Of a DNA stretch of 51,777 bases, positions 1,444 through 15,479 are shown piece by piece; within the stretch, counting starts at the first letter, position 1; every line of letters starts with the position of its first letter. The translations under genes were made by a program, and so were the position numbers. Where the stretch lies: NCBI GenBank assembly GCA_945910645.1, contig CAMDZB010000006.1, positions 1-51,777 on the forward strand. Direction: 5' to 3'. The notes under the pieces were generated by a model, which was given only the letters and a program-made list of their open reading frames with translations, was not told the DNA's origin and did not search any database. Source of the stretch: an uncultured Spirochaetaceae bacterium. GTDB taxonomy: Bacteria; Spirochaetota; Spirochaetia; Sphaerochaetales; Sphaerochaetaceae.

Positions 1444-4400
1444 ATGAGCGATATTATGCGCCCTATTCCTTTTGAGGAATTATTACAGAGAGTATTTCAA
1501 GAGTACAAGAAAGGTTCAATTTTTGGTATTAAGAAAGAGAATTTTTTCACTTACGACAAAAAACACAAAGCAAAGATTTTTGACAAGACTTGCTCGTCCG
1601 TAGTAGGACCTGCAGCAGGACCACACACTCAGCTTGCACAGAACATTATCGCAAGCTACCTCGTTGGTGGACGATTTATGGAGCTAAAGACAGTCCAGAT
1701 TATGGATCGCCTTGAAATTGCAAAGCCATGTATCGATGCACGAGACGAGGGATACAACGTTGAGTGGTCAACAGAGTACACGCTATTAAAAGCACGCGAC
1801 GAATACTACAAAGCTTGGATTGTACTACATCTAATCGAAGCTCTAATGGACGGCGGTGACTTTGAGGAGCCAACATTCCTATTCAACATGTCTGTAGGCT
1901 ACAACCTCGAGGGCATCAAGAATCCACGCATGCAGGAATTCATCGACAGGATGATAGACGCATCGGAGGACGCATCATTCAAGTCTTACCTCAATAAGCT
2001 AGACCAGTTTATTTCAAACACAGATTATGTAAAGGGAACAGCATGGGCTAAGGCTGCAGATAAGCTTAAGAAAAAGAAGCTATCACAGAAGATTAGTCCA
2101 AATATTGCAACAAGTGCAACAATTTCAACAATGCACGGATGTCCTCCTGCAGAGATTGAACAGATAGCAAAATACATGCTAGAAGAGAAGCACATCTCAA
2201 TCTTCGTCAAGCTCAATCCAACGCTTCTTGGATACGACAGGGTAAGAGAGATTCTCGACAACCTTGGATATAACTACCTCACATTAAAACGTGAGACTTT
2301 CGAGCACGATCTTCAGTATAAGGATGCAATCGTAATGATTGGACGCCTAATGGAGGTTGCAAAGAAAGAGAATCTACGATTCGGCGTAAAACTTACAAAT
2401 ACACTTGCATCTGTGAACAACTACGGCATCCTACCAGGCGAAGAGATGTACATGTCTGGAAGAGCATTGTTCCCAATTGCAACAACTCTTGCATCACGCT
2501 TATCAGCTGAGTTCAACGGTGAACTTCCACTATCATACTCAGGCGGTGCAAACATCTTCACATCAAAGGGATTGTTCGAGGCAGGCATCCGCCCAATAAC
2601 AATCGCAACTGACATGCTCCATCCAGGTGGATACAACAGAATGAAGCAGATTGTGGAGCTCCTTGAGACGTCAAAAGACGAGTATTGGGAAAGAAAAAAC
2701 GGCAGAATCGACGTTAATGCAATCAAAGTGGTTGCAGAAGAAGCCCTTGATAACAAGTTTATCCAAAAGGCATTCCGTGGCACAAAACCTATCAAAGTTG
2801 ACCGAAAACTACCACGCGAAGACTGTTATATCGCACCATGTGATATGGCTTGTCCTGTACATCAGGATATTCCAAAGTACCTTGCAGAGACTGCCAAAGG
2901 CGACTACGAAGCTGCTATGGCAACGCTCTATCAGTACAACGTGCTTCCTAACATCACATGCGAAATCTGTGACCATAAATGTCAATACAACTGTTCACGC
3001 TTAGACTATGAAGGCAAGTCGCTTCAGATCAGATCGATTAAGAAAGTTGCTGTTGATAACGGCTTTAAAGAGTACGAGAAGAAGGTGGCAGCATCATCAA
3101 GCACGCTCACAGGCCCTCGTGTTGCTGTGGTGGGTGCAGGTCCTGCAGGACTTGCAGCGTCGATCTTCCTTGCACAGAAGAACTTCCAGGTTGAGGTGTT
3201 CGAAAGAGAAGCATCAGCTGGTGGTACAGTACGCTATGTAATTCCTGAGTTCAGGATTGCAGAAGAGGTGATTGAGAGAGATGTAAAGCATGCTCGTAAC
3301 CTTGGTGTTAACTTCACATTCGGCGTTCCAATGACGGATGTAACAGTAAGCGCACTCAGGGCTAAGGGATTCGACTATATCTTCTATGCAATCGGTGCTG
3401 AGAAAGAGAATAAGCTTAAGGGTCACGGTGACACATCAAGAACCATGGATGCCCTCACATTCCTCAGAGAATGCAGAAGCCACAACGAAGATCTATACAT
3501 CGGCAAGAACGTTGTAGTAGTTGGCGCTGGTAACTCCGCAATGGACGCAGCAAGAGCTGCAAAGAAGGTTGAAGGCGTTGAGAACGTAACTGTGGTATAC
3601 AGAAGAACAATTCAGGAGATGCCTGCAGACAGACAGGAGTATGAGGAAGCACTTGAGGAAGGAATCAAGTTTGAATTCCTTGCATACCCATCACGCCATA
3701 CAGACGGCAACCTTGACTGTATCAGGATGGCACTTGGCGAAAAGGACGCATCAGGACGTAGAGCACCAGTTCCTACAACTCAGCACTTTGACATCCCATG
3801 TGACTACATCATCGCAGCAATCGGCGAAAGAGTAGACGATGGTGACCTTGAAAAACTCAGCATTCCAATGACTGAGAAGGGATATCCTGATACAAAGAAG
3901 GGCTCATTTGAAACAACAGAGAAGGGAGTATACACAATCGGTGACATGGCTGTTGGCGCATCATCTGTAATTAGATGTGTACAGACTGCACGTGAAGCTG
4001 TAAATACGCTCATCAAGAACGTATATGGCGAGGATGCAGAGCTACTTCCTGAACATCACGCTCCAATCGCAAAAGAAGAGGATCTTGCAAAGAGAAGAGC
4101 TCATGTATGCACATCAATTCCAACACCAGGAACTCCTGACTTTGCACGTGAAGAGGCATCAAGATGTATGGACTGTTCATCGCACTGCGAAAAGTGTGTT
4201 GATGTATGTCCAAACCGTGCTAATGCTGTTATAGACTTCACAGGCGATAGTGATGCAAAGCTATTCGAGCTTCCATATCAGGTGATCCACATCGACGCAT
4301 ACTGTAACGAGTGTGGTAACTGTGCATCGTTCTGCCCATATAAGGATAGCGAACCTTACCACGATAAGTTCACAGTATTCTCACGCGAGGAGGATATCAG

Positions 4401-4590
4401 AAACTCAAATAACGACGGATTCTACCTCACTCACTCATCTCTGATGATTAGAGATAAGGGTATTATGATTGTTGCAGAATACCACAACGGTGAAATCAAG
4501 TCACAGAGTCAGATATCACCACGTGCTGTTGCTTTAATCAACAAGATCGTTAAGGATTACAAATATCTCGTAGGACCTGTAGGAGACTAA
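1444..4590 (+). CDS. ygfK: YgfK-family Fe-S/FAD oxidoreductase (putative selenate reductase subunit)
   Basis: This 1048-residue protein opens with the YgfK signature (MRPIPFEELLQRVF ... GSIFGI). An N-terminal dihydropyrimidine-dehydrogenase-like region of about 450 residues comes first. A GltD-like module follows: cysteines C461, C466, C470 and C506/C509/C513/C517 for Fe-S clusters, GAGPAGLA (564-571) for FAD, and VVGAGNSAMDAAR (from 692) for NAD(P)H. A C-terminal double ferredoxin has C908/C911/C915/C918/C922 and C954/C957/C960/C964. It is expected to move electrons between a pyridine nucleotide and a partner oxidoreductase in the cytoplasm. In E. coli and gut anaerobes ygfK sits with ssnA in a selenium/purine-degradation cluster. 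Here only ssnA follows, 1 nt downstream. The selenate-reductase name is historical. Confidence 0.93.
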   Translation: MSDIMRPIPFEELLQRVFQEYKKGSIFGIKKENFFTYDKKHKAKIFDKTCSSVVGPAAGPHTQLAQNIIASYLVGGRFMELKTVQIMDRLEIAKPCIDARDEGYNVEWSTEYTLLKARDEYYKAWIVLHLIEALMDGGDFEEPTFLFNMSVGYNLEGIKNPRMQEFIDRMIDASEDASFKSYLNKLDQFISNTDYVKGTAWAKAADKLKKKKLSQKISPNIATSATISTMHGCPPAEIEQIAKYMLEEKHISIFVKLNPTLLGYDRVREILDNLGYNYLTLKRETFEHDLQYKDAIVMIGRLMEVAKKENLRFGVKLTNTLASVNNYGILPGEEMYMSGRALFPIATTLASRLSAEFNGELPLSYSGGANIFTSKGLFEAGIRPITIATDMLHPGGYNRMKQIVELLETSKDEYWERKNGRIDVNAIKVVAEEALDNKFIQKAFRGTKPIKVDRKLPREDCYIAPCDMACPVHQDIPKYLAETAKGDYEAAMATLYQYNVLPNITCEICDHKCQYNCSRLDYEGKSLQIRSIKKVAVDNGFKEYEKKVAASSSTLTGPRVAVVGAGPAGLAASIFLAQKNFQVEVFEREASAGGTVRYVIPEFRIAEEVIERDVKHARNLGVNFTFGVPMTDVTVSALRAKGFDYIFYAIGAEKENKLKGHGDTSRTMDALTFLRECRSHNEDLYIGKNVVVVGAGNSAMDAARAAKKVEGVENVTVVYRRTIQEMPADRQEYEEALEEGIKFEFLAYPSRHTDGNLDCIRMALGEKDASGRRAPVPTTQHFDIPCDYIIAAIGERVDDGDLEKLSIPMTEKGYPDTKKGSFETTEKGVYTIGDMAVGASSVIRCVQTAREAVNTLIKNVYGEDAELLPEHHAPIAKEEDLAKRRAHVCTSIPTPGTPDFAREEASRCMDCSSHCEKCVDVCPNRANAVIDFTGDSDAKLFELPYQVIHIDAYCNECGNCASFCPYKDSEPYHDKFTVFSREEDIRNSNNDGFYLTHSSLMIRDKGIMIVAEYHNGEIKSQSQISPRAVALINKIVKDYKYLVGPVGD

Positions 4591-4591
4591 T

Positions 4592-5935
4592 ATGAGCACA
4601 ATAGCAATTAAGAATACCCGTGTACTTCAGACAAAGGGCGATGTAGACGTACTTGAAGGAGTAGACGTAGTAATTAAGGATGATAAGATTGTTGCAGTCG
4701 GAAAGGATGCAGCTAAGGATGTAAAGGCAGACAAGGTGATTAACGGCAAGGGTAAAACCGTTATGCCAGGCTTTGTATGCGGACACCATCACTACTACAG
4801 CGGCCTTTCCAGAGGTATGCAGATAACAGCAGGTCCTCAAACTGACTTCATCCAGGTGCTAAAAGAATGGTGGTGGCGCCTTGATAGAGGCCTTCAGGAG
4901 GAGAGCACGTACTACTCATCAATGATCTGCTCAATAGAGGCAATCAAGGCAGGTACTACTGCGGTTATCGACCATCACGCATCGCCTAACTACATCAATG
5001 GCAGCCTTTCTACAATCGCAAAGGGTCTTAAAGAGACAGGCCTTAGAGGGCTCACATGCTATGAGGTTACAGACCGTAACGGTGGCATGAAAGAGGTTGA
5101 AGAAGGCGTTGAGGAGAACATCCGCTTTGCAAAGGAATGTGATGATGAAAAGAAAAAGCTCGGCAACGATGCGCTTGTAGAGGCAATGATCGGTGGACAC
5201 GCTCCATTCACGATTCCTGATGAAGGGTTAAAGCTTATGTCTAAGGCATGTAAGCAGACCAAGCGCGGTATGCATCTTCACATCGCTGAGGATAAGTACG
5301 ACGTGGTCTACTCGCATCACCATTACAACAAAGACATCGTAAAGAGACTCGAGGATTTCGACCTTCTACACGAGAATACGCTTCTTGTGCATGGACTTCA
5401 CTTGAACAAGGATGAGGCACGCATAATCAATGAACATAAGTGTTTCTTTGCCCACAACCCAAGAAGTAACATGAACAACCACGTGGGTTACTGCGGCGTA
5501 TTACAGGATGTAGACAAGCTCATCATCGGCACAGACGGCTGTGGTGGCAACATGTTTGAAGAGATTAAAATCGGCTTCTTTAAACATAAGGATGACGGCG
5601 GTCCATGGTGGCCATCGAACTACCTTGAGGCACTCACACGTGCAAACGACCTACTCGAGATGTACTACGGACGCAAGTTCGGCAGAGTTGAGAAGGGTTA
5701 CGTTGCAGACCTCGTGATACTCGATTATCAGAACCCAACTCCACTTATCAAGGAGAATCTTGCAACTCACATTCTATGGGGTATGAGCTCAAACGTTGTG
5801 GAAAGCGTAATTGTAAACGGCGTTATTAGAATGGAAAATCACGAGATTGTTGGCATCGACACAGAAAAGGTATTCAAAGAGGCCTCAAAGTGTGCCGCAA
5901 AACTCTGGAAAGTAGTAGACAAGATTAAGGCATAA
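4592..5935 (+). CDS. ssnA: SsnA-family amidohydrolase
   Basis: A 447-residue metal-dependent hydrolase of the amidohydrolase/ATZ-TRZ superfamily. The HxH metal site is H65-x-H67 in GHHHYYSGLSRG. Further metal ligands are expected in LHIAED and VHGLH, and the catalytic Asp in GTDGCGG. The order and wording of motifs (WWRLDR, DHHASP, NNHVGY, GGPWWPSN) match E. coli SsnA closely. It starts one base after the ygfK stop and shares its promoter. SsnA-type enzymes probably deaminate or hydrolyse a heterocyclic purine-derived compound; the exact substrate is not settled. Confidence 0.94.
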   Translation: MSTIAIKNTRVLQTKGDVDVLEGVDVVIKDDKIVAVGKDAAKDVKADKVINGKGKTVMPGFVCGHHHYYSGLSRGMQITAGPQTDFIQVLKEWWWRLDRGLQEESTYYSSMICSIEAIKAGTTAVIDHHASPNYINGSLSTIAKGLKETGLRGLTCYEVTDRNGGMKEVEEGVEENIRFAKECDDEKKKLGNDALVEAMIGGHAPFTIPDEGLKLMSKACKQTKRGMHLHIAEDKYDVVYSHHHYNKDIVKRLEDFDLLHENTLLVHGLHLNKDEARIINEHKCFFAHNPRSNMNNHVGYCGVLQDVDKLIIGTDGCGGNMFEEIKIGFFKHKDDGGPWWPSNYLEALTRANDLLEMYYGRKFGRVEKGYVADLVILDYQNPTPLIKENLATHILWGMSSNVVESVIVNGVIRMENHEIVGIDTEKVFKEASKCAAKLWKVVDKIKA

Positions 5936-5940
5936 AAAAT

Positions 5941-5981
5941 TGCACAACACTTCAAGGCAAGTGTGCAGTATTTGCACACTT
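5941..5981. promoter_or_regulatory. cluster of three TGCACA-type half sites (possible enhancer site)
   Basis: TGCACAACACTT (5941-5952), AAGTGTGCA (5959-5967, inverted) and TGCACACTT (5973-5981) are three copies of one half site. Two of them form the ssnA terminator stem. They sit about 90-130 nt upstream of the predicted sigma-54 start, the usual distance for activator binding, so a double role is possible but unproven. Confidence 0.3.
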
Positions 5982-5988
5982 GCTTTTT
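5957..5988 (+). terminator. rho-independent terminator after ssnA
   Basis: Perfect 11-bp stem GCAAGTGTGCA (5957-5967) / TGCACACTTGC (5973-5983), 5-nt loop, then TTTTT. Confidence 0.92.
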
Positions 5989-6043
5989 AATATAAAATCG
6001 ATTAAATCCTTGAATTTCAACAATTTACGTTAATTTTCTAGAA

Positions 6044-6061
6044 TTGGCACGCTTTTTGCAT
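6044..6061 (+). promoter_or_regulatory. sigma-54 (-24/-12) promoter of the sigma-factor gene
   Basis: The sequence TTGGCACGCTTTTTGCAT matches the sigma-54 consensus TGGCACG-N4-TTGCW at every fixed position. The invariant GG (6046-6047) and GC (6058-6059) are exactly 12 nt apart. Initiation is predicted near 6071, just before an AGGAG Shine-Dalgarno (about 6075-6079) and the ATG at 6088. A TATAAT at 6061-6066 overlaps it but has no -35 partner. Confidence 0.88.
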
Positions 6062-6087
6062 ATAATAAAGTGCAAGGAGAAAAAGCC

Positions 6088-6939
6088 ATGACAAGCACAA
6101 CAGCATTAAACGACGAAACAATCGTTAGCATGTATTTTAATGACATTGCCAATTATCCATTACTATCAGAGAGCGAAGAAGAGAATCTAGCTCTAAGAGT
6201 TGCAATGGGTGATGAAAGAGCAAGAGAATTGCTTATCAAAAGCAACCTGCGCTTTGTTGTGAAAGTTGCAAAGGAATACCAGGGGTTAGGCTTATCCCTT
6301 CCAGAACTTATCAGCGAAGGCAATATTGGACTTACAGTTGCAGCAGACAAGTACGATGCAAAACGTGGCACACGCTTTGTAAGTTACGCAATTTGGTGGA
6401 TCAGACAGTCTATCCTCAAGGCGCTTGGCGAGAAGAGCAGAGCAGTTCGCCTTCCACAGAATAGAGTGCTTGATTACACAAGAATCAAGAACGAATCAAA
6501 TCGCTTTGAAGAGGAATACGGCAGAACTCCAACTGATAAGGAGCTCTCAAAACGAGTTAACCTTACAACAGAGGTGATCAGAAACATTCGTTTTGCAACC
6601 CTTCCGCAGATATCCCTAGACACTCCACTTCAGGGATGTGATGGTGAGAATACAAAAACAAACATGAAGGATACCATTCCTTCAGATGATAGCAACTTTG
6701 TTGTAGACATGGAGGAACAGGAGTCTAGAGACGAGGTGCTTGATGTAGTCAACGCTCTTTCTAAAAAGGAGTCAGATGTGATTAAGATGCGCTTTGGACT
6801 CGATGGATACAGCGAGATGTCACTTGCCGACATTGGCGAGGTGATGTCACTAACAAAAGAGAGAATCAGACAGATTGAAAAGGAGGGACTTGCACATCTA
6901 AGGTCAATGGTTAAAGACAGAGACCTTCATATGAACTAA
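6088..6939 (+). CDS. group-2 sigma-70-family RNA polymerase sigma factor (RpoS-like)
   Basis: The 283-residue protein has sigma regions 1.2-2 (MYFNDIANYPLLSESEE; NLRFVVKVAKEY; GNIGLTVAADKYD), the core-binding and -10 recognition stretch RFVSYAIWWIRQSI, region 3, and a region 4 helix-turn-helix ending SLTKERIRQIEKEGL. It is too short for a primary RpoD and lacks region 1.1. The frame can be extended to a GTG at 6070, but the Shine-Dalgarno at about 6075-6079 and the predicted start near 6071 favour ATG 6088. It is placed as an alternative (stress or stationary-phase) sigma factor. Control by the sigma-54 promoter just upstream would make it the second step of a sigma cascade. Confidence 0.9.
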   Translation: MTSTTALNDETIVSMYFNDIANYPLLSESEEENLALRVAMGDERARELLIKSNLRFVVKVAKEYQGLGLSLPELISEGNIGLTVAADKYDAKRGTRFVSYAIWWIRQSILKALGEKSRAVRLPQNRVLDYTRIKNESNRFEEEYGRTPTDKELSKRVNLTTEVIRNIRFATLPQISLDTPLQGCDGENTKTNMKDTIPSDDSNFVVDMEEQESRDEVLDVVNALSKKESDVIKMRFGLDGYSEMSLADIGEVMSLTKERIRQIEKEGLAHLRSMVKDRDLHMN

Positions 6940-8941: not shown

Positions 8942-10249
8942 ATGAAAAAGTCAGCGCATTGGTTTGAGAAGTTAACGATCCTCATGTTTTGCTTGGTGAT
9001 AATAGGCGTGTTGCATTTTCTCACGTTCACGCTGATTAATAAGGAGTTTATTGAGGAGAAGAGGGACATTGAACGTATATTGTTCGACCTCTACATCGCG
9101 TCAAAGTCCAATGAACAGCGAATTTCAACAATCCTTAAGGATAACGGCGTTGAAGGCATCGCAATCTACGATAAAAGCGGAAAGATGTACTACCACTACG
9201 GAAATACTCCAGTATATGATGATCTTCCGATTAATCAAAATAACTTTGTTCCAGGCACATCCGACCTTGTTATCAAGAAAAACGTGGTTGAATACGTGGG
9301 GTACCCTCAGCAACGAGGAGCTGCAAGTCAAGAAAGGCAAGGCTTTGATCTTGCTCAGTTCATGCGTGAACTAGTAACGCAAAGGAATCAGACACCAATT
9401 GAGGGGCGAATGTTGCCGCTTCAAACCGTGTACGTGAGAAAGGCAGACTCAAGCTTTGCTCATCGGGTGATAGCGCTAAGGGTGATACAGGTGCTATCAA
9501 CTGTGATAATAGCAATGCTCGGCATGGTGCTCTGGCACTACGAAAAGCGTAACGAGATGCTTTTGGAAAAGGTGAACAAGCGTGAGTCAAAGGCAACCAT
9601 GAGTGAGGCTGCACGTACGCTTGCACATGAGATTAAAAATCCACTTTCCACAATCAAAATACAGCTTGCGATACTTAAAAAGACGTCACCTGAGAACGCA
9701 AGTGACTACGATCTTATCGAAAATGAGGTTGAACGCCTACTCACTCTTGCAGATCGCACAACGAACTTCCTCAGCAATCCACTTGGAACTCCAAAGCGCA
9801 TTAAACTCATTCCGTTTATCGCAGAATTCTGCACGCGTTTTGAATACCCATTATTAATCGCAAACGAGCCTGGAACTGATGACATTGCTGTAAACTTTGA
9901 TGAGATAAGACTTAGAAGCATCATAGAAAACCTCATCAAAAACGCGGTAGAGGCGTCGGAAGAGAGAATTAAGAACGAGCACTTGGACTATAAAGAGCCC
10001 ATCAGAATAGAAGTGGCTGAAAAGGGGAAGGCTGGCGTGAGGATCCTTGTGCAAGACAGGGGTGTTGGACTTCCAAAAGGCATAAAGGCAGACGAGCTAT
10101 TTAACGCGTTCTACACCACAAAAATCAAGGGCTCTGGCATTGGACTTTCAATCTGTAGTCAGTTTGTTGAAGCTCAGGGCGGAACAATTAACATATATGA
10201 TCGTGAGGGCGGCGGAAGCGTTGCTGACGTAGTTTTAAAGAGGGCATAG
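8942..10249 (+). CDS. NtrB/AtoS-type sensor histidine kinase
   Basis: A 435-residue membrane kinase. Transmembrane helices are at about 11-33 and 177-200, with an extracytoplasmic sensor domain of about 140 residues between them. The DHp H-box is AARTLAHEIKNPLS (H229). The ATPase domain has the N-box (IIENLIKNAVEAS), G1 (VQDRGVGLP) and G2 (GSGIGLSIC). It lies one base upstream of an NtrC-type regulator, so the two form a sigma-54 two-component system. No Shine-Dalgarno is visible before ATG 8942 and the pckA terminator ends just upstream, so the origin of its transcript is unclear. The sensed signal is unknown. Confidence 0.93.
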   Translation: MKKSAHWFEKLTILMFCLVIIGVLHFLTFTLINKEFIEEKRDIERILFDLYIASKSNEQRISTILKDNGVEGIAIYDKSGKMYYHYGNTPVYDDLPINQNNFVPGTSDLVIKKNVVEYVGYPQQRGAASQERQGFDLAQFMRELVTQRNQTPIEGRMLPLQTVYVRKADSSFAHRVIALRVIQVLSTVIIAMLGMVLWHYEKRNEMLLEKVNKRESKATMSEAARTLAHEIKNPLSTIKIQLAILKKTSPENASDYDLIENEVERLLTLADRTTNFLSNPLGTPKRIKLIPFIAEFCTRFEYPLLIANEPGTDDIAVNFDEIRLRSIIENLIKNAVEASEERIKNEHLDYKEPIRIEVAEKGKAGVRILVQDRGVGLPKGIKADELFNAFYTTKIKGSGIGLSICSQFVEAQGGTINIYDREGGGSVADVVLKRA

Positions 10250-10250
10250 A

Positions 10251-11570
10251 ATGAACATTTTAATAATTGATGATGAGGAGATGCTCAGAAGCCAACTGAT
10301 TAAGTACATGTCGCTTGAGAACATTGAGGCAGAGGGTGCTGCAAACGGACGCGAAGGCATGGATAAGATCGAAAAGCACAGTTACGATGCCGTGATTGTG
10401 GACTTCAGAATGCCGGAGATGGACGGCCTTGAGATGATCAAAAAAGCCCGTAGCCACGGATACCGTATGCCAATCATCATGATGAGCGCACACGGTGAGA
10501 CAAAGGATGCTGTTGAGGCGTTAAAAAGCGGTGCAGACGACTACATTATCAAGCCTTTTGCCCCAGATGAACTTGTGATAAGAGTTAAGCAGTGCATCGA
10601 TTCATTCAAGACCAAAAACTACATAGAATTTGTTAAGAAAAAATCGGAATACACCAATACATTCATAGGCGAGTGCGACGAGATTAAGCACATAAAAGAC
10701 ATGGTTGAGCGCATGAGTTCATCGCTATCAAACGTGTTAATCACAGGCGAAAGTGGCACAGGAAAAGAGGTACTTGCGCGCTACATTCATCATTACTCGC
10801 CCTTCCAGACGGGGCCATTTGTTGCAATCAACATTGCAGGAATTCCTGAAAACCTCATCGAAAGCGAGCTCTTTGGGTATGAAAAGGGCGCGTTTACTGG
10901 TGCAGTCTCACGAAAGGCAGGCCTCTTTGAGCTTGCTCAGGGCGGAACGCTCTTTCTGGATGAGATCGGCGATGCATCTCTCTCGCTTCAGGTGAAGCTC
11001 CTACGCGTGATCCAGGAGAAAACCATCATGAGAGTGGGCGGAACCACATCAATCCCAATCAAGGTACGCTTCATCAGCGCAACAAATAAGAACCTCGAGG
11101 AGATGGTAAAAGAGGGCACATTCAGGGAGGATCTATTCTTTAGAATCAACGTTGTGAACTTCCATCTTCCTCCTCTACGTGAACGAGGGGATGATGTAAT
11201 TCTGCTCTCAAAGGCCATAGTAACTCGTCTTGGCAACAACATGGCATCAAACGTCAAAGGGCTATCAGACGGCGCAATTAAGAAGATTTGCTCGTACAGC
11301 TTCCCTGGTAACATCAGAGAGCTTGAGAATACGCTTGAAAGGGCGATAATCTTCTCAAATGGAGCCTACGTTGATGAAAATGCCCTTGAGTTCTCATCAA
11401 AGGTGACCTTAGGTGCAACTCCTTCAAACGTGGTTACTATGAAGGATGCAGAAATCCTTGCTATCAGGAACGCCCTATCTGCAACGGATAACAACAGGAC
11501 GAAGGCGTCGGAGATGCTTGGAATTTCAAGGCGTTCTCTCATCACCAAAATTGAGGAATACGGGCTTTAA
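10251..11570 (+). CDS. NtrC-family sigma-54-dependent response regulator
   Basis: The 439 residues comprise a receiver domain (D7, D8, phospho-acceptor D51, KPF lysine K101), an AAA+ domain with Walker A GESGTGKE (166-173) and the sigma-54 contact loop GAFTGA (213-218), and a C-terminal Fis-type helix-turn-helix (RTKASEMLGISRRSL). It should hydrolyse ATP to open sigma-54 promoters when phosphorylated by the kinase encoded just upstream. A natural candidate target is the sigma-54 promoter about 4 kb upstream at 6044-6061, but no binding site can be proven here. Confidence 0.95.
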   Translation: MNILIIDDEEMLRSQLIKYMSLENIEAEGAANGREGMDKIEKHSYDAVIVDFRMPEMDGLEMIKKARSHGYRMPIIMMSAHGETKDAVEALKSGADDYIIKPFAPDELVIRVKQCIDSFKTKNYIEFVKKKSEYTNTFIGECDEIKHIKDMVERMSSSLSNVLITGESGTGKEVLARYIHHYSPFQTGPFVAINIAGIPENLIESELFGYEKGAFTGAVSRKAGLFELAQGGTLFLDEIGDASLSLQVKLLRVIQEKTIMRVGGTTSIPIKVRFISATNKNLEEMVKEGTFREDLFFRINVVNFHLPPLRERGDDVILLSKAIVTRLGNNMASNVKGLSDGAIKKICSYSFPGNIRELENTLERAIIFSNGAYVDENALEFSSKVTLGATPSNVVTMKDAEILAIRNALSATDNNRTKASEMLGISRRSLITKIEEYGL

Positions 11571-11637: not shown

Positions 11638-12660
11638 ATGGATAAGAAACGTTCAACTTCTGGCGATAACAGTGCAGTAATAAAGCCAAAAAAGCATCAC
11701 AGTGCTCCACATTTTATGAGAAACATCGGTTGGTACTTTGCAATTTTAATCGTAGCAATATTGATAGTAATCATGGCAGTGCCATCAGTTAGCGTGTTTT
11801 CGTCACGTGGCAGAGGCGAGGGTTATACCTTTGGTAAGTTCGGCAATAGAAATATTGAATTTACAGACGGTTCATACATGCTCTACGCTTACAACGGCAT
11901 TATGCAGCAATACTCACAGTACTTCGACAATACTCAGTTGAACAATATGCAGATGTCAATAATGCAGCAGGCATTCCAGACAGGCGCAGTCTCTGAAGGC
12001 ACAAGCTATTACGCATCATCATCAGACATGACTGTTACAGACAAGCAGGTTGACGATTACATCAAAGATGTCTACACAGACCAAGACGGCAAGTTCAACA
12101 GAAACGCATGGGCTAGCCTATCCACAGGAGAAAAGGCAAGAATCAGACGCTTTGCTAAAAACGAGATTATCCAGAACTCATTCATCGATGACATCAAGAC
12201 TGTAACTATTCCAAAAGGTGAGATTGAACTCATCAAGAGCTACAAGCAGGAACAGAACAACAAGGATGCAGAAAAGCAGAATGAAAACAATGCTAATGCA
12301 GCAGCATCAGCAGAAGGTGCAGAGGCGGCACCTATAGAACCAGTAGCACCTGTAATCGTTACAGATGCAATCGTGATTAAGGACATCAGGGATACCGCAA
12401 CAGAGCGCTATAGTTCTGCACTCCTTTCATCACCAAAGCTTACAGACAATTTTGTAGATACATACAACAAGAGGATCCTTCCAATTATCGAAGCTAACAA
12501 GAGAGCAGCAGAAGAGGCTGAGGCTAACGCTGCAGTAAGCACAGTTGAGGAAAATCCAAACCCAATCGTTACAGATGAGACTACAGATGATGTAAACAGA
12601 GATAGCATTACTGCTGACGTTGCGTTGGATGACGTTCAGGCGGAGGATGCTCAGAACTAA
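11638..12660 (+). CDS. membrane-anchored SurA N-terminal-like protein
   Basis: A 340-residue protein with a basic cytoplasmic N-terminus (about 28 residues), one membrane helix (about 30-52) and a large extracytoplasmic part. The region around 60-200 is helical and resembles the N-terminal chaperone-like domain of SurA/PpiD proteins (VTDKQVDDYIKDVYTDQDGKFNRNAW). No parvulin isomerase domain is visible. Instead there is an Ala/Glu/Asn-rich low-complexity linker (about 205-245) and an acidic C-terminal tail. It may help fold exported proteins. The stop codon overlaps the next start (TAATG), so it is coupled with cvpA and holB. Family assignment is tentative. Confidence 0.6.
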   Translation: MDKKRSTSGDNSAVIKPKKHHSAPHFMRNIGWYFAILIVAILIVIMAVPSVSVFSSRGRGEGYTFGKFGNRNIEFTDGSYMLYAYNGIMQQYSQYFDNTQLNNMQMSIMQQAFQTGAVSEGTSYYASSSDMTVTDKQVDDYIKDVYTDQDGKFNRNAWASLSTGEKARIRRFAKNEIIQNSFIDDIKTVTIPKGEIELIKSYKQEQNNKDAEKQNENNANAAASAEGAEAAPIEPVAPVIVTDAIVIKDIRDTATERYSSALLSSPKLTDNFVDTYNKRILPIIEANKRAAEEAEANAAVSTVEENPNPIVTDETTDDVNRDSITADVALDDVQAEDAQN

Positions 12661-13169
12661 TGAGCTTTACGGTAATTGACGGCGTAATACTTCTAATATT
12701 TGTCGCAGGCGGAATAGTTGTTGCACTTAAGGGTTTCTTTGCGGAGCTCGGATCAAAGGCAAGCTATTTTATTGGCTTTCTTGTGTCTATGATGTTCACG
12801 CGCCGTCTTGCATACTTTGTTGCAAACTCACTTGATATACAGCAGTTGTTGCCAGTTTCGCTTATCACGTTTCTTGTGTTGTTTTACATTGGATTTTTGC
12901 TCTGTAGGGTGCTTGCAAACGTTTTAACAAAGGCTATAGAAGGGGTCAAGCTCGAGGTGATAAACAAGACGCTCGGATTCTTCCTTGGTATCATTGAAGC
13001 GTTCGTTTGTATATCACTTGTGCTCTATATCCTACGCTACCAAACCCTCTTTAACCTTACAAACGTGCTTAATAACTCATTTATGTATACACGCATTTTT
13101 GAACCTATCTACGACTGGATTTCAAGGGCGGGGATAGTGGATCAAATATCACAGAGCATCGGCACTTAA
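12660..13169 (+). CDS. cvpA: CvpA-family membrane protein
   Basis: The 169-residue protein matches the CvpA family: a first helix VIDGVILLIFVAGGIVVALKG followed by GFFAEL, and about four transmembrane segments. CvpA proteins are inner-membrane proteins needed for colicin V export and envelope stress tolerance in enterobacteria; their molecular role is not defined. It overlaps the previous gene by one base and is followed one base later by holB. Confidence 0.82.
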   Translation: MSFTVIDGVILLIFVAGGIVVALKGFFAELGSKASYFIGFLVSMMFTRRLAYFVANSLDIQQLLPVSLITFLVLFYIGFLLCRVLANVLTKAIEGVKLEVINKTLGFFLGIIEAFVCISLVLYILRYQTLFNLTNVLNNSFMYTRIFEPIYDWISRAGIVDQISQSIGT

Positions 13170-13170
13170 A

Positions 13171-14331
13171 ATGCTTGAGAAAACAAAAGCAATTCAACCA
13201 AAGGTACAAGGCGACTTAGTAAGAGCATTTAACGAAAATAGATTCCCACGTTCAGTACTCTTTGCAGGCGGACGCTATACAGGGCGTTTGACATCTTCCC
13301 TTGAGTGCGCAAAGGAATTGCTTCACGTTGATAACTTATACAGAAACATCCCAAATTTATATCTATCGCTTTCACGCTCGTACGCTACGGACTTATCGGC
13401 AAAGGCAAGTCTTTATAAGAAGCACCTTACGCGTAGCTCATTCCAGAACTTTCTTGATACGTTTTTTATCGTATTGCTGTCAGAGTCGTTTGCATCAATG
13501 CGCGAGGAATATGGTGTTAAGGCAACTAAAGACTCGGACAGTGCAGGTGAGCTCATCAACACATTCAATGCGCTTTTGGATATTTCTGACTTGTACGACG
13601 ATAAGGATAGGGTTGAACCGCTTATAGACAAGGTGTTGAAGCTTTCTGATAAGATCAAGCCATCCCCTGTTTTTTCAATCAAGGATGTGAGGGCGTTTAA
13701 GGCATCATCTGAGCTTCATACCGCAGAAGGAGGGGCGCGAATCTACATTGTGGAAGGGCTTGAAAATGCGAGCATTGGCGCAAAAAACGCCTTTCTTAAG
13801 CTTCTTGAGGAGCCGCCTGAAAATTCATATATCTTTATCCTTAGCGAGGTTAAGGAGCGCCTTCTTGAGACTATCCTGTCGCGTCTGACTACTTTTACAT
13901 TCCTTCCGCTTCCAAACAGCGTTAAGAACGGCATAATTGTGTCGTATAACGAGGATGGACGCAAGTTCGATTCGCTTGAGGACTTCTTCCTCACAATCGG
14001 ATTTGAAGAGAGCAACGTAATCAAGACGATGGCAAAGGACTTTGCTTGTTTTACGCTCTCAAATAAGGATCTCAGCAAGGCGCGTGAGATTGCACTACAA
14101 TTTGCCGCAAAGAGCAAGGAAGGAAACGCAAAGACGCCGTATCTACTTAAAATCTTCTCAAACGAGGTATTTATTGAGGGTAAGAGGATACTAAGCGAGC
14201 GCGAGGAGAGCACATATTACTTACAGGCACTGCTTACATCGCTTTCAAAAGCAGAATCGCGCGTGAATGCATACAACCAGTCTCTACGTAACTCGCTACT
14301 CATCCTATTGGACGATTTAATAAAGTTGTAG
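13171..14331 (+). CDS. holB: DNA polymerase III clamp-loader subunit delta-prime-like
   Basis: The 386-residue protein has the delta-prime/DnaX-like clamp-loader core: LFAGGRYTGR near the N-terminus in place of a working P-loop, the GAKNAFLKLLEEPPENSYIFIL sensor region and the downstream LSRLTTF arginine-finger-like segment (SRC motif replaced by LSRL). It would help load the sliding clamp at replication forks. The Walker A lysine is not seen, which is usual for delta-prime. It begins one base after cvpA without an obvious Shine-Dalgarno and is probably translated by coupling. Confidence 0.8.
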   Translation: MLEKTKAIQPKVQGDLVRAFNENRFPRSVLFAGGRYTGRLTSSLECAKELLHVDNLYRNIPNLYLSLSRSYATDLSAKASLYKKHLTRSSFQNFLDTFFIVLLSESFASMREEYGVKATKDSDSAGELINTFNALLDISDLYDDKDRVEPLIDKVLKLSDKIKPSPVFSIKDVRAFKASSELHTAEGGARIYIVEGLENASIGAKNAFLKLLEEPPENSYIFILSEVKERLLETILSRLTTFTFLPLPNSVKNGIIVSYNEDGRKFDSLEDFFLTIGFEESNVIKTMAKDFACFTLSNKDLSKAREIALQFAAKSKEGNAKTPYLLKIFSNEVFIEGKRILSEREESTYYLQALLTSLSKAESRVNAYNQSLRNSLLILLDDLIKL

Positions 14332-14344: not shown

Positions 14345-15448
14345 ATGGCAAAATCGGGCGAAAAAGCACTAGTCGTAATGCCACCTACAACAGGTGGAGT
14401 TCAAGACGGCAGAAAGGGCATTGACGAGATCATCACAAACAGTTCTCCTATGGCTCATATTGTCGAGATGGTGCTGCGTATTGCCCCGTCAAACCTTAGC
14501 ATATTGATCACAGGTGAATCGGGTGTGGGAAAGCAGGTGGTTGCTGAGGCTATACACACGTCATCTGGACGCAAGGGTGCATTTGTGGACACCCACTGCG
14601 CAGCCTTTTCTCCAACGCTTCTTGAAGATGAGCTATTCGGACACGAAAAGGGTGCTTTTACAGGCGCAATTACATCCAAAAAAGGCATATTTGAAAAGGC
14701 AAACGGTGGAACGCTATTCCTTGATGAAATTGGCGAAATAGATCCAACTGTACAGGTAAAGTTGCTTAAAGTACTTGAGGAGAAGAAATTCACGCCTCTT
14801 GGATCCGATAAAGAGATCAAGAGCGACTTCAGGTTAGTATCCGCAACAAACCGAGACCTTAAAAAGGAAGTTGAGGAAGGGAGATTCCGGGAGGATCTCT
14901 ACTACCGCATCAACAAGATGAACCTCGACATCCCGCCACTCAGGGAGCGTAAAAGCGACATTGTAGCGCTTGCATCCTCGTTTTTAGAGCGTTACTCGCG
15001 TGAGAATAAGAAAAACATCCAGGGATTTACGGAGGAAACTGCAAAGATCCTTCTTACGTACAAGTGGCCTGGTAACATCAGGGAGCTTCAGAACGTGATT
15101 GAGGCAAGTACGGTGCTTGCAGACGGCTCGTTTATCACAAAGGATGACCTCCCGATGTATCTTCAGCATCTAGACGTCTCTGATAACATCAAGACTGAAG
15201 ACATTCCAATCATCCATAGCGACGAAAGGCGAGAGACCATCCGTAAGGAAGATCAGGATGAGCCTACAACCATCATAAACAAGGGTTACGAGACTCAGTC
15301 GGGGCGCTATGTATCAATTAAACTTGGAACTCTCAAGGAGATGGAGAGGGATCTTATCAAAGCCACGCTTGACTTCTACGGTGGCAATAAAACGCAGGCG
15401 GCGATTGCACTTGGCGTAAATAGAAAAACGCTAGCCAATAACAGCTAG
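14345..15448 (+). CDS. sigma-54-dependent transcriptional activator without receiver domain
   Basis: A 367-residue AAA+ activator. A short N-terminus of about 30 residues replaces the usual regulatory domain. Walker A is GESGVGKQ (57-64) and the sigma-54 contact loop is GAFTGA (103-108); the arginine-finger region follows. The C-terminus begins a Fis-type helix-turn-helix (NKTQAAIALGVNRKTL) but stops right after it, ending ANNS, so the last part of the recognition helix (usually like RKLKEYG) is missing. The stop codon lies inside the hairpin that terminates the convergent groES gene. It may act constitutively or through a partner protein, as PspF does. DNA binding could be weakened. Confidence 0.92.
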   Translation: MAKSGEKALVVMPPTTGGVQDGRKGIDEIITNSSPMAHIVEMVLRIAPSNLSILITGESGVGKQVVAEAIHTSSGRKGAFVDTHCAAFSPTLLEDELFGHEKGAFTGAITSKKGIFEKANGGTLFLDEIGEIDPTVQVKLLKVLEEKKFTPLGSDKEIKSDFRLVSATNRDLKKEVEEGRFREDLYYRINKMNLDIPPLRERKSDIVALASSFLERYSRENKKNIQGFTEETAKILLTYKWPGNIRELQNVIEASTVLADGSFITKDDLPMYLQHLDVSDNIKTEDIPIIHSDERRETIRKEDQDEPTTIINKGYETQSGRYVSIKLGTLKEMERDLIKATLDFYGGNKTQAAIALGVNRKTLANNS

Positions 15449-15451
15449 CGT
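15424..15451 (-). terminator. terminator of groES overlapping the activator gene end
   Basis: Perfect 8-bp stem ACGCTAGC / GCTAGCGT (15428-15435 and 15444-15451). Read on the minus strand it is followed by TTTTT, as needed for groES termination; on the plus strand the tail is not T-rich. Confidence 0.8.
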
Positions 15452-15479
15452 CTTAAATTGATTAATGATTTTGCATCAA

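Follow-up and report, generated by a model that had tools for sequence, protein, structure and literature searches.

Results

The window, by which we mean the whole 51,777-nucleotide stretch of DNA analysed here, is contig C6 of the 1.15-Mb draft genome G000 and carries a group-2 sigma factor gene directly preceded by a predicted sigma-54 promoter, with two sigma-54 activator genes further downstream (Table 1). The -24/-12 element has its GG at 6046-6047 and its GC at 6058-6059, a spacing of 12 nt from G to G, and 27 nt separate it from the ATG at 6088, exactly the perfect element that the preliminary description had reported; the predicted +1 lies at about 6071. The element conforms to TGGCAYR-N4-TTGCW with fixed GG-GC spacing, and the full consensus TTGGCACGN4TTGCW occurs once in the window against 0.01 matches expected from shuffles of the window, the expectation for one-mismatch sites being 0.59 per window. 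The longest open reading frame of the sigma gene begins at GTG 6070, and because this codon precedes the predicted +1, the ATG at 6088 is the likely start. Directly upstream of the sigma gene lies the pair ygfK and ssnA (1444-5935), genes linked to selenium metabolism, and the hairpin and T-run behind ssnA likely shield the sigma gene from read-through.

Table 1. Features around the sigma factor gene in the window.
Feature	Position	Strand	Basis or remark
Likely terminator of ssnA, hairpin GCAAGTGTGCA...TGCACACTTGC plus TTTTT	5957..5988	+	Sequence
Candidate upstream element TTTCAACAATTTACGT	6015..6030	+	Near copy upstream of the dnaK sigma-54 site
Predicted sigma-54 -24/-12 promoter TTGGCACGCTTTTTGCA	6044..6060	+	Sequence, shuffles, conservation before orthologues
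Ribosome binding site AAGGAG	6074..6079	+	Sequence
Group-2 sigma-70 factor, 283 aa	6088..6939	+	Orthologous to TDE0937 of T. denticola and apparently to TP1012 of T. pallidum
Sensor histidine kinase	8942..10249	+	29.6% over 243 aa to the kinase next to rrp2 of Borrelia
NtrC-type sigma-54 activator (receiver, AAA+, HTH)	10251..11570	+	Outside the Rrp2 clade
cvpA, conserved neighbour	12660..13169	+	Also beside rrp2 in the Borrelia genome
holB (DNA pol III delta'), conserved neighbour	13171..14331	+	Also beside rrp2 in the Borrelia genome
Rrp2-type sigma-54 activator, lacking the receiver and the last HTH residues	14345..15448	+	GAFTGA intact

Sigma-70 regions 1.2, 2, 3 and 4 are present in the protein and region 1.1 is not recognised, which, with a separate RpoD in the genome, places it in group 2. 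It resembles proteobacterial RpoS in this domain make-up and in its association with stress, but falls far under the curated cut-off of that family (TIGR02394; 215.7 against 378.7 bits) and is controlled differently. A C-terminal LEAYxA / LESYxA-like motif, which could be a degradation tag, is found in 46 of 59 orthologous sigma factors (L017-L046, L150-L179) and is gone from the window copy (6922-6936) and its sister.

The genome holds one rpoN, the gene on which the cascade suggested in the preliminary description depended. A genome-wide search with PF00158 returned two strong activators, of about 232 and 225 bits, both in the window, and two further weak matches of 19-26 bits. The two strong ones were already described as activators with intact GAFTGA loops, and both indeed combine an AAA+ domain with GAFTGA, as expected of bEBPs; a receiver is present in the first and missing from the second, whose Fis-type HTH is also slightly short. 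Besides the window sigma, RpoD is the only sigma-70-type protein of this genome in which region 2 is recognised, and a third that could be RpoH was not found. Given its family and the absence of this third sigma-70-type gene, the window lineage is probably non-flagellated.

To compare upstream regions across spirochaetes, as had been proposed, we scored -24/-12 sites with a weighted scheme (maximum 23.6) in 30 orthologues from a search of relatives. In 28 of these a site scoring at least 21.6 lies 20-40 nt before the start, and the other two score 19.6; elsewhere in these loci, on both strands, a score of at least 22.5 was reached twice in 216,474 positions. In a second, named collection the site is present in 59 of 70 spirochaete loci, two of the 70 having no upstream DNA, against none of nine Bacteroidetes homologues. 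Four site-less loci of this collection (L077, L087, L091 and L126) cluster on a branch of their own in the tree. The site is likewise conserved in a further set, mostly Treponemataceae together with other families, and even a diverged copy in G002, only 35% identical, retains a perfect one. Overall, the site is held at the same position across about 20 families. Since the aligned orthologous proteins go down to about 40% identity with the window sigma, this non-coding site has been retained far longer than chance allows. Across the class, RpoN is present in 287 of 297 genomes and the window-type sigma in 234 of 297 (cut-off 1e-60, Treponema query); with the same query and cut-off none was found in the listed genomes of the Borrelia-like family f19. 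A plasmid search gave distant homologues only. The orthologues in L130 and L131 (G020 and G035) are shorter by about 40 residues, with matches ending near residue 130 and restarting near 178, so that region 3 seems largely absent; the sigma-54 site there is perfect.

In G054, an apparent Borrelia by gene order, rpoS has a sigma-54 site of its own, TTGGCATGATTTTTGCA, and lies in the order flgFGAIJ-rpoS-pda-tsaD-thiD-murG-cvpA-holB-kinase-rrp2. Five genomes (G041, G043, G048, G053 and G057) contain an rpoS with its own sigma-54 site in the flgJ-rpoS-pda-tsaD setting and in addition an orthologue of the window sigma, so the RpoS-type and the window-type sigma coexist in at least five genomes. In our sigma tree, which has long branches for Borrelia and G049, the RpoS of Borrelia falls into one clade with its syntenic orthologues (99/97). 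This clade groups with RpoD (95/96) and away from the window sigma. Of the elements of a Borrelia-type pathway, the window genome thus has rpoN and an Rrp2-family activator that has lost its receiver; judged by tree and synteny, its sigma is not orthologous to Borrelia RpoS.

The protein encoded at 14345-15448 groups in the Rrp2 clade (94/99, on a long branch) and not with the NtrC-type regulator (10251-11570), and its gene comes after holB, like the kinase-rrp2 pair in the apparent Borrelia genome. The early end of its HTH is not a sequencing slip, because the copy in the sister genome G001 stops at the same point. A hairpin, ACGCTAGC...GCTAGCGT, overlaps the last codons of the gene (15420-15460). 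Some 13 other loci have an Rrp2-type gene upstream of the sigma gene, at a distance of up to about 5 kb. In L074 and L103 it immediately precedes the sigma gene, and L048 reads kinase, rrp2, dinG-type helicase, small gene, sigma. In G001, a receiver-less Rrp2-type copy (71% identical) directly adjoins the sigma gene on its upstream side.

Searching whole genomes for exact sites of the pattern TTGGCAYRN4TTGCW, and leaving out the one-mismatch list, which falls mostly inside genes, we found three sites each in G000 and G001, only before the genes for the sigma factor, dnaK and a ClpB-type chaperone. The distances from site to start in G000 and G001 are 27 and 28 nt for sigma, 44 and 66 nt for dnaK, and 53 and 35 nt for clpB, respectively. 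A near-identical element, TTTCAACAAYTTACRT, precedes both the sigma (6015-6030) and the dnaK (L014, about 1478-1493) sigma-54 sites, with spacings that differ by about 9 nt. In the other 26 genomes with an identified dnaK, this gene lacks the site, so we dismissed the idea of a family-wide dnaK site; among the genomes compared it is confined to the window genus. A search of 61 genomes turned up no HrcA, and its loss as an event specific to the genus could accordingly be discarded. Elsewhere, sites precede Hsp20 genes in G004, G256 and T. denticola, Dps genes in G023 and in an apparent T. pallidum (TpF1), and a peroxiredoxin gene in T. denticola. For the apparent T. pallidum Dps antigen TpF1 (L292 946-1476, minus strand), TGGCATGGTTTTTGCT lies 24 nt before the start. 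L295 (G043) holds a nifH-like gene with a site 36 nt before its start; nifH is a classical sigma-54 target, and this locus served as an informal positive control.

Both published primers for T. denticola TDE0937 match L181 (G212) exactly, 98 bp apart, and the window sigma is therefore a relative of TDE0937. This gene was reported to be induced 2.8-fold by heat, 21.8-fold by oxygen and 14.0-fold by osmotic downshift, and was proposed as a possible global stress regulator (PMC2965109). In the same study, peroxiredoxin tde0011 was induced 38.6-fold by oxygen and Hsp20 tde1029 about 9.5-, 8.5- and 6.7-fold in the three stresses, and control was left to 'a yet unidentified transcriptional regulator' (PMC2965109). 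In G212 (T. denticola), consensus sites precede one peroxiredoxin and one Hsp20 gene, which we identify as tde0011 and tde1029 by family and position; a third exact site, at 1838392, has no gene close behind and was left out of the count. TDE0937 is an orthologue of the window sigma, but its -24 has drifted to TTAGCA, whereas the close relative G184 keeps TTGGCA, and no sigma-54 link was drawn for it (PMC2965109); because of this change, sigma-54 dependence of TDE0937 itself may be weak. T. denticola has a further sigma, TDE0070, with a sequence resembling the site; in the published table it is not stress-induced (PMC2965109). An apparent T. pallidum genome, G109, carries an orthologue with ATGGCATGATATTTGCT upstream; by position this is apparently TP1012, the product of which was seen by mass spectrometry (PMC5015957). 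This link to a published stress response, like the promoters of dnaK and clpB, goes beyond the preliminary description.

Discussion

In the circuit that we propose, the sigma gene would be transcribed from about position 6071 off a sigma-54 promoter, at which RpoN polymerase would wait in a closed state until an AAA+ activator opens it, and the second sigma factor would then redirect polymerase to a second tier of genes. In the window genus, RpoN may also act directly on dnaK and clpB. The sites with their statistics and conservation, the gene content, the clades, the synteny and the association with published stress-induced genes are seen directly; that the gene depends on sigma-54, which activator acts on it, what stress is sensed and which genes the second sigma reads are inferred. 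The arrangement would be ancestral to the Spirochaetia and serve stress survival, and the Rrp2-RpoN-RpoS pathway of Borrelia would be its sister branch, with the activator family and the promoter type in common and a different sigma gene. We consider such an ancestral stress circuit, running from sigma-54 to a group-2 sigma with the Borrelia pathway as its sister, to be probable. The ancient circuit would have had two sigma outputs, one of which was kept by Borrelia.

How secure is the promoter, and how old? The transcript start is a prediction, and one-mismatch sites are frequent by chance in a window of this size, so one could suppose that the element is a chance match or a relic and that the sigma gene is truly read from a sigma-70 promoter. 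The full match, however, has the very low shuffle expectation given above and recurs in the same place in family after family despite the divergence of the proteins; on these two grounds we set a chance match aside, and the supposition is the least probable of those weighed here. The preliminary description had left it between an ancient and a convergent origin. That two different sigma genes carry such sites indicates recruitment on more than one occasion, but in nearly every sampled branch of orthologues the site occupies the same place, the Rrp2-type neighbour recurs, and a few losses are simpler than many gains, which makes separate gains of sigma-54 control in several lineages very unlikely. 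Class-wide conservation of the site, together with the repeated occurrence of an Rrp2-type activator near the sigma gene, favours an ancient origin. As for the equivalence to the Borrelia cascade that had been suggested, the relay from sigma-54 to a group-2 sigma stands, and the equation with rpoS does not. Both proteins are group-2 sigma factors behind near-identical sigma-54 sites with an Rrp2-type activator nearby, so the window could in principle show the Borrelia pathway in another species. However, the RpoS clade is separate from the window sigma, though the long Borrelia branches call for caution, and five genomes hold both genes; orthology was rejected on tree and synteny, and we regard it as very unlikely. 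Instead, the class would have two sigma genes with sigma-54 sites, Borrelia having retained one and the window lineage the other; the window-type sigma appears to have been lost from Borrelia.

Which activator opens the promoter? The Rrp2-type protein is the leading candidate, because its type recurs beside the sigma gene and adjoins it in the sister genome, and we take it to be the most likely activator. The other candidate is the neighbouring NtrC-type response regulator with its kinase (8942-11570), acting instead of the Rrp2-type protein or alongside it. This regulator has its receiver, AAA+ and HTH intact and its partner kinase lies 2 kb downstream of the sigma gene, while in the Rrp2-type protein the receiver and the end of the HTH are gone. 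Nonetheless, the activator that recurs beside the sigma gene in other families is of the Rrp2 type, and it is this type that stands directly upstream in G001. A role for the NtrC-type pair is a real but distinctly less probable option than the Rrp2-type protein.

Like the Borrelia burgdorferi pathway, the window has an RpoN-type promoter directly before a group-2 sigma gene, an Rrp2-family activator, and cvpA and holB as neighbours. Unlike it, the sigma gene is another one, in a separate clade and locus, the Rrp2-type protein is without a receiver, and dnaK and clpB also stand behind sigma-54 sites. The published role of the Borrelia pathway is in the tick-mammal transition and not in general stress (PMC6719511). 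With RpoH (sigma-32) and HrcA/CIRCE the proposed circuit has in common that dnaK and clpB would be under a dedicated regulator; it differs in that the genome offers no RpoH candidate and HrcA was not found in the 61 genomes, sigma-54 sites preceding dnaK and clpB instead. There is also a broader reading, to which we give an even chance: sigma-54 may be the ancestral general-stress regulator of the Spirochaetia in place of RpoH and HrcA, driving a stress sigma together with protective genes (Hsp20, Dps and peroxiredoxin, and in the window genus DnaK and ClpB), the Borrelia virulence pathway being a repurposed branch.

In the open-licence papers that we searched we found descriptions of the Borrelia pathway and of Leptospira sigma factors, and no such circuit for Treponema or Sphaerochaeta. 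For the control of heat and oxygen stress in Treponema and other non-Borrelia spirochaetes, a candidate regulator can now be named, along with a few predicted target promoters in species that can be cultured. If the proposal is true, the predicted direct sigma-54 targets in the syphilis spirochaete include TP1012 and the Dps antigen TpF1, and the Borrelia RpoN-RpoS pathway is recast as one branch of an old, class-wide circuit.

Two lineages show departures at the -24 position. In the T. denticola group (L140, L141, L180-L183), the TDE0937-type and the TDE0070-type sigma genes both have TTAGCA there, as if the sigma-54 preference had shifted. In family f20 (G055 and G093; L038, L187 and L188) the site has diverged to GGGAAC at -24, and RpoN of these genomes has a DNA-binding domain that is an unusually poor match to its family (5e-11 and 8e-13); here, promoter and sigma-54 may possibly be changing together.
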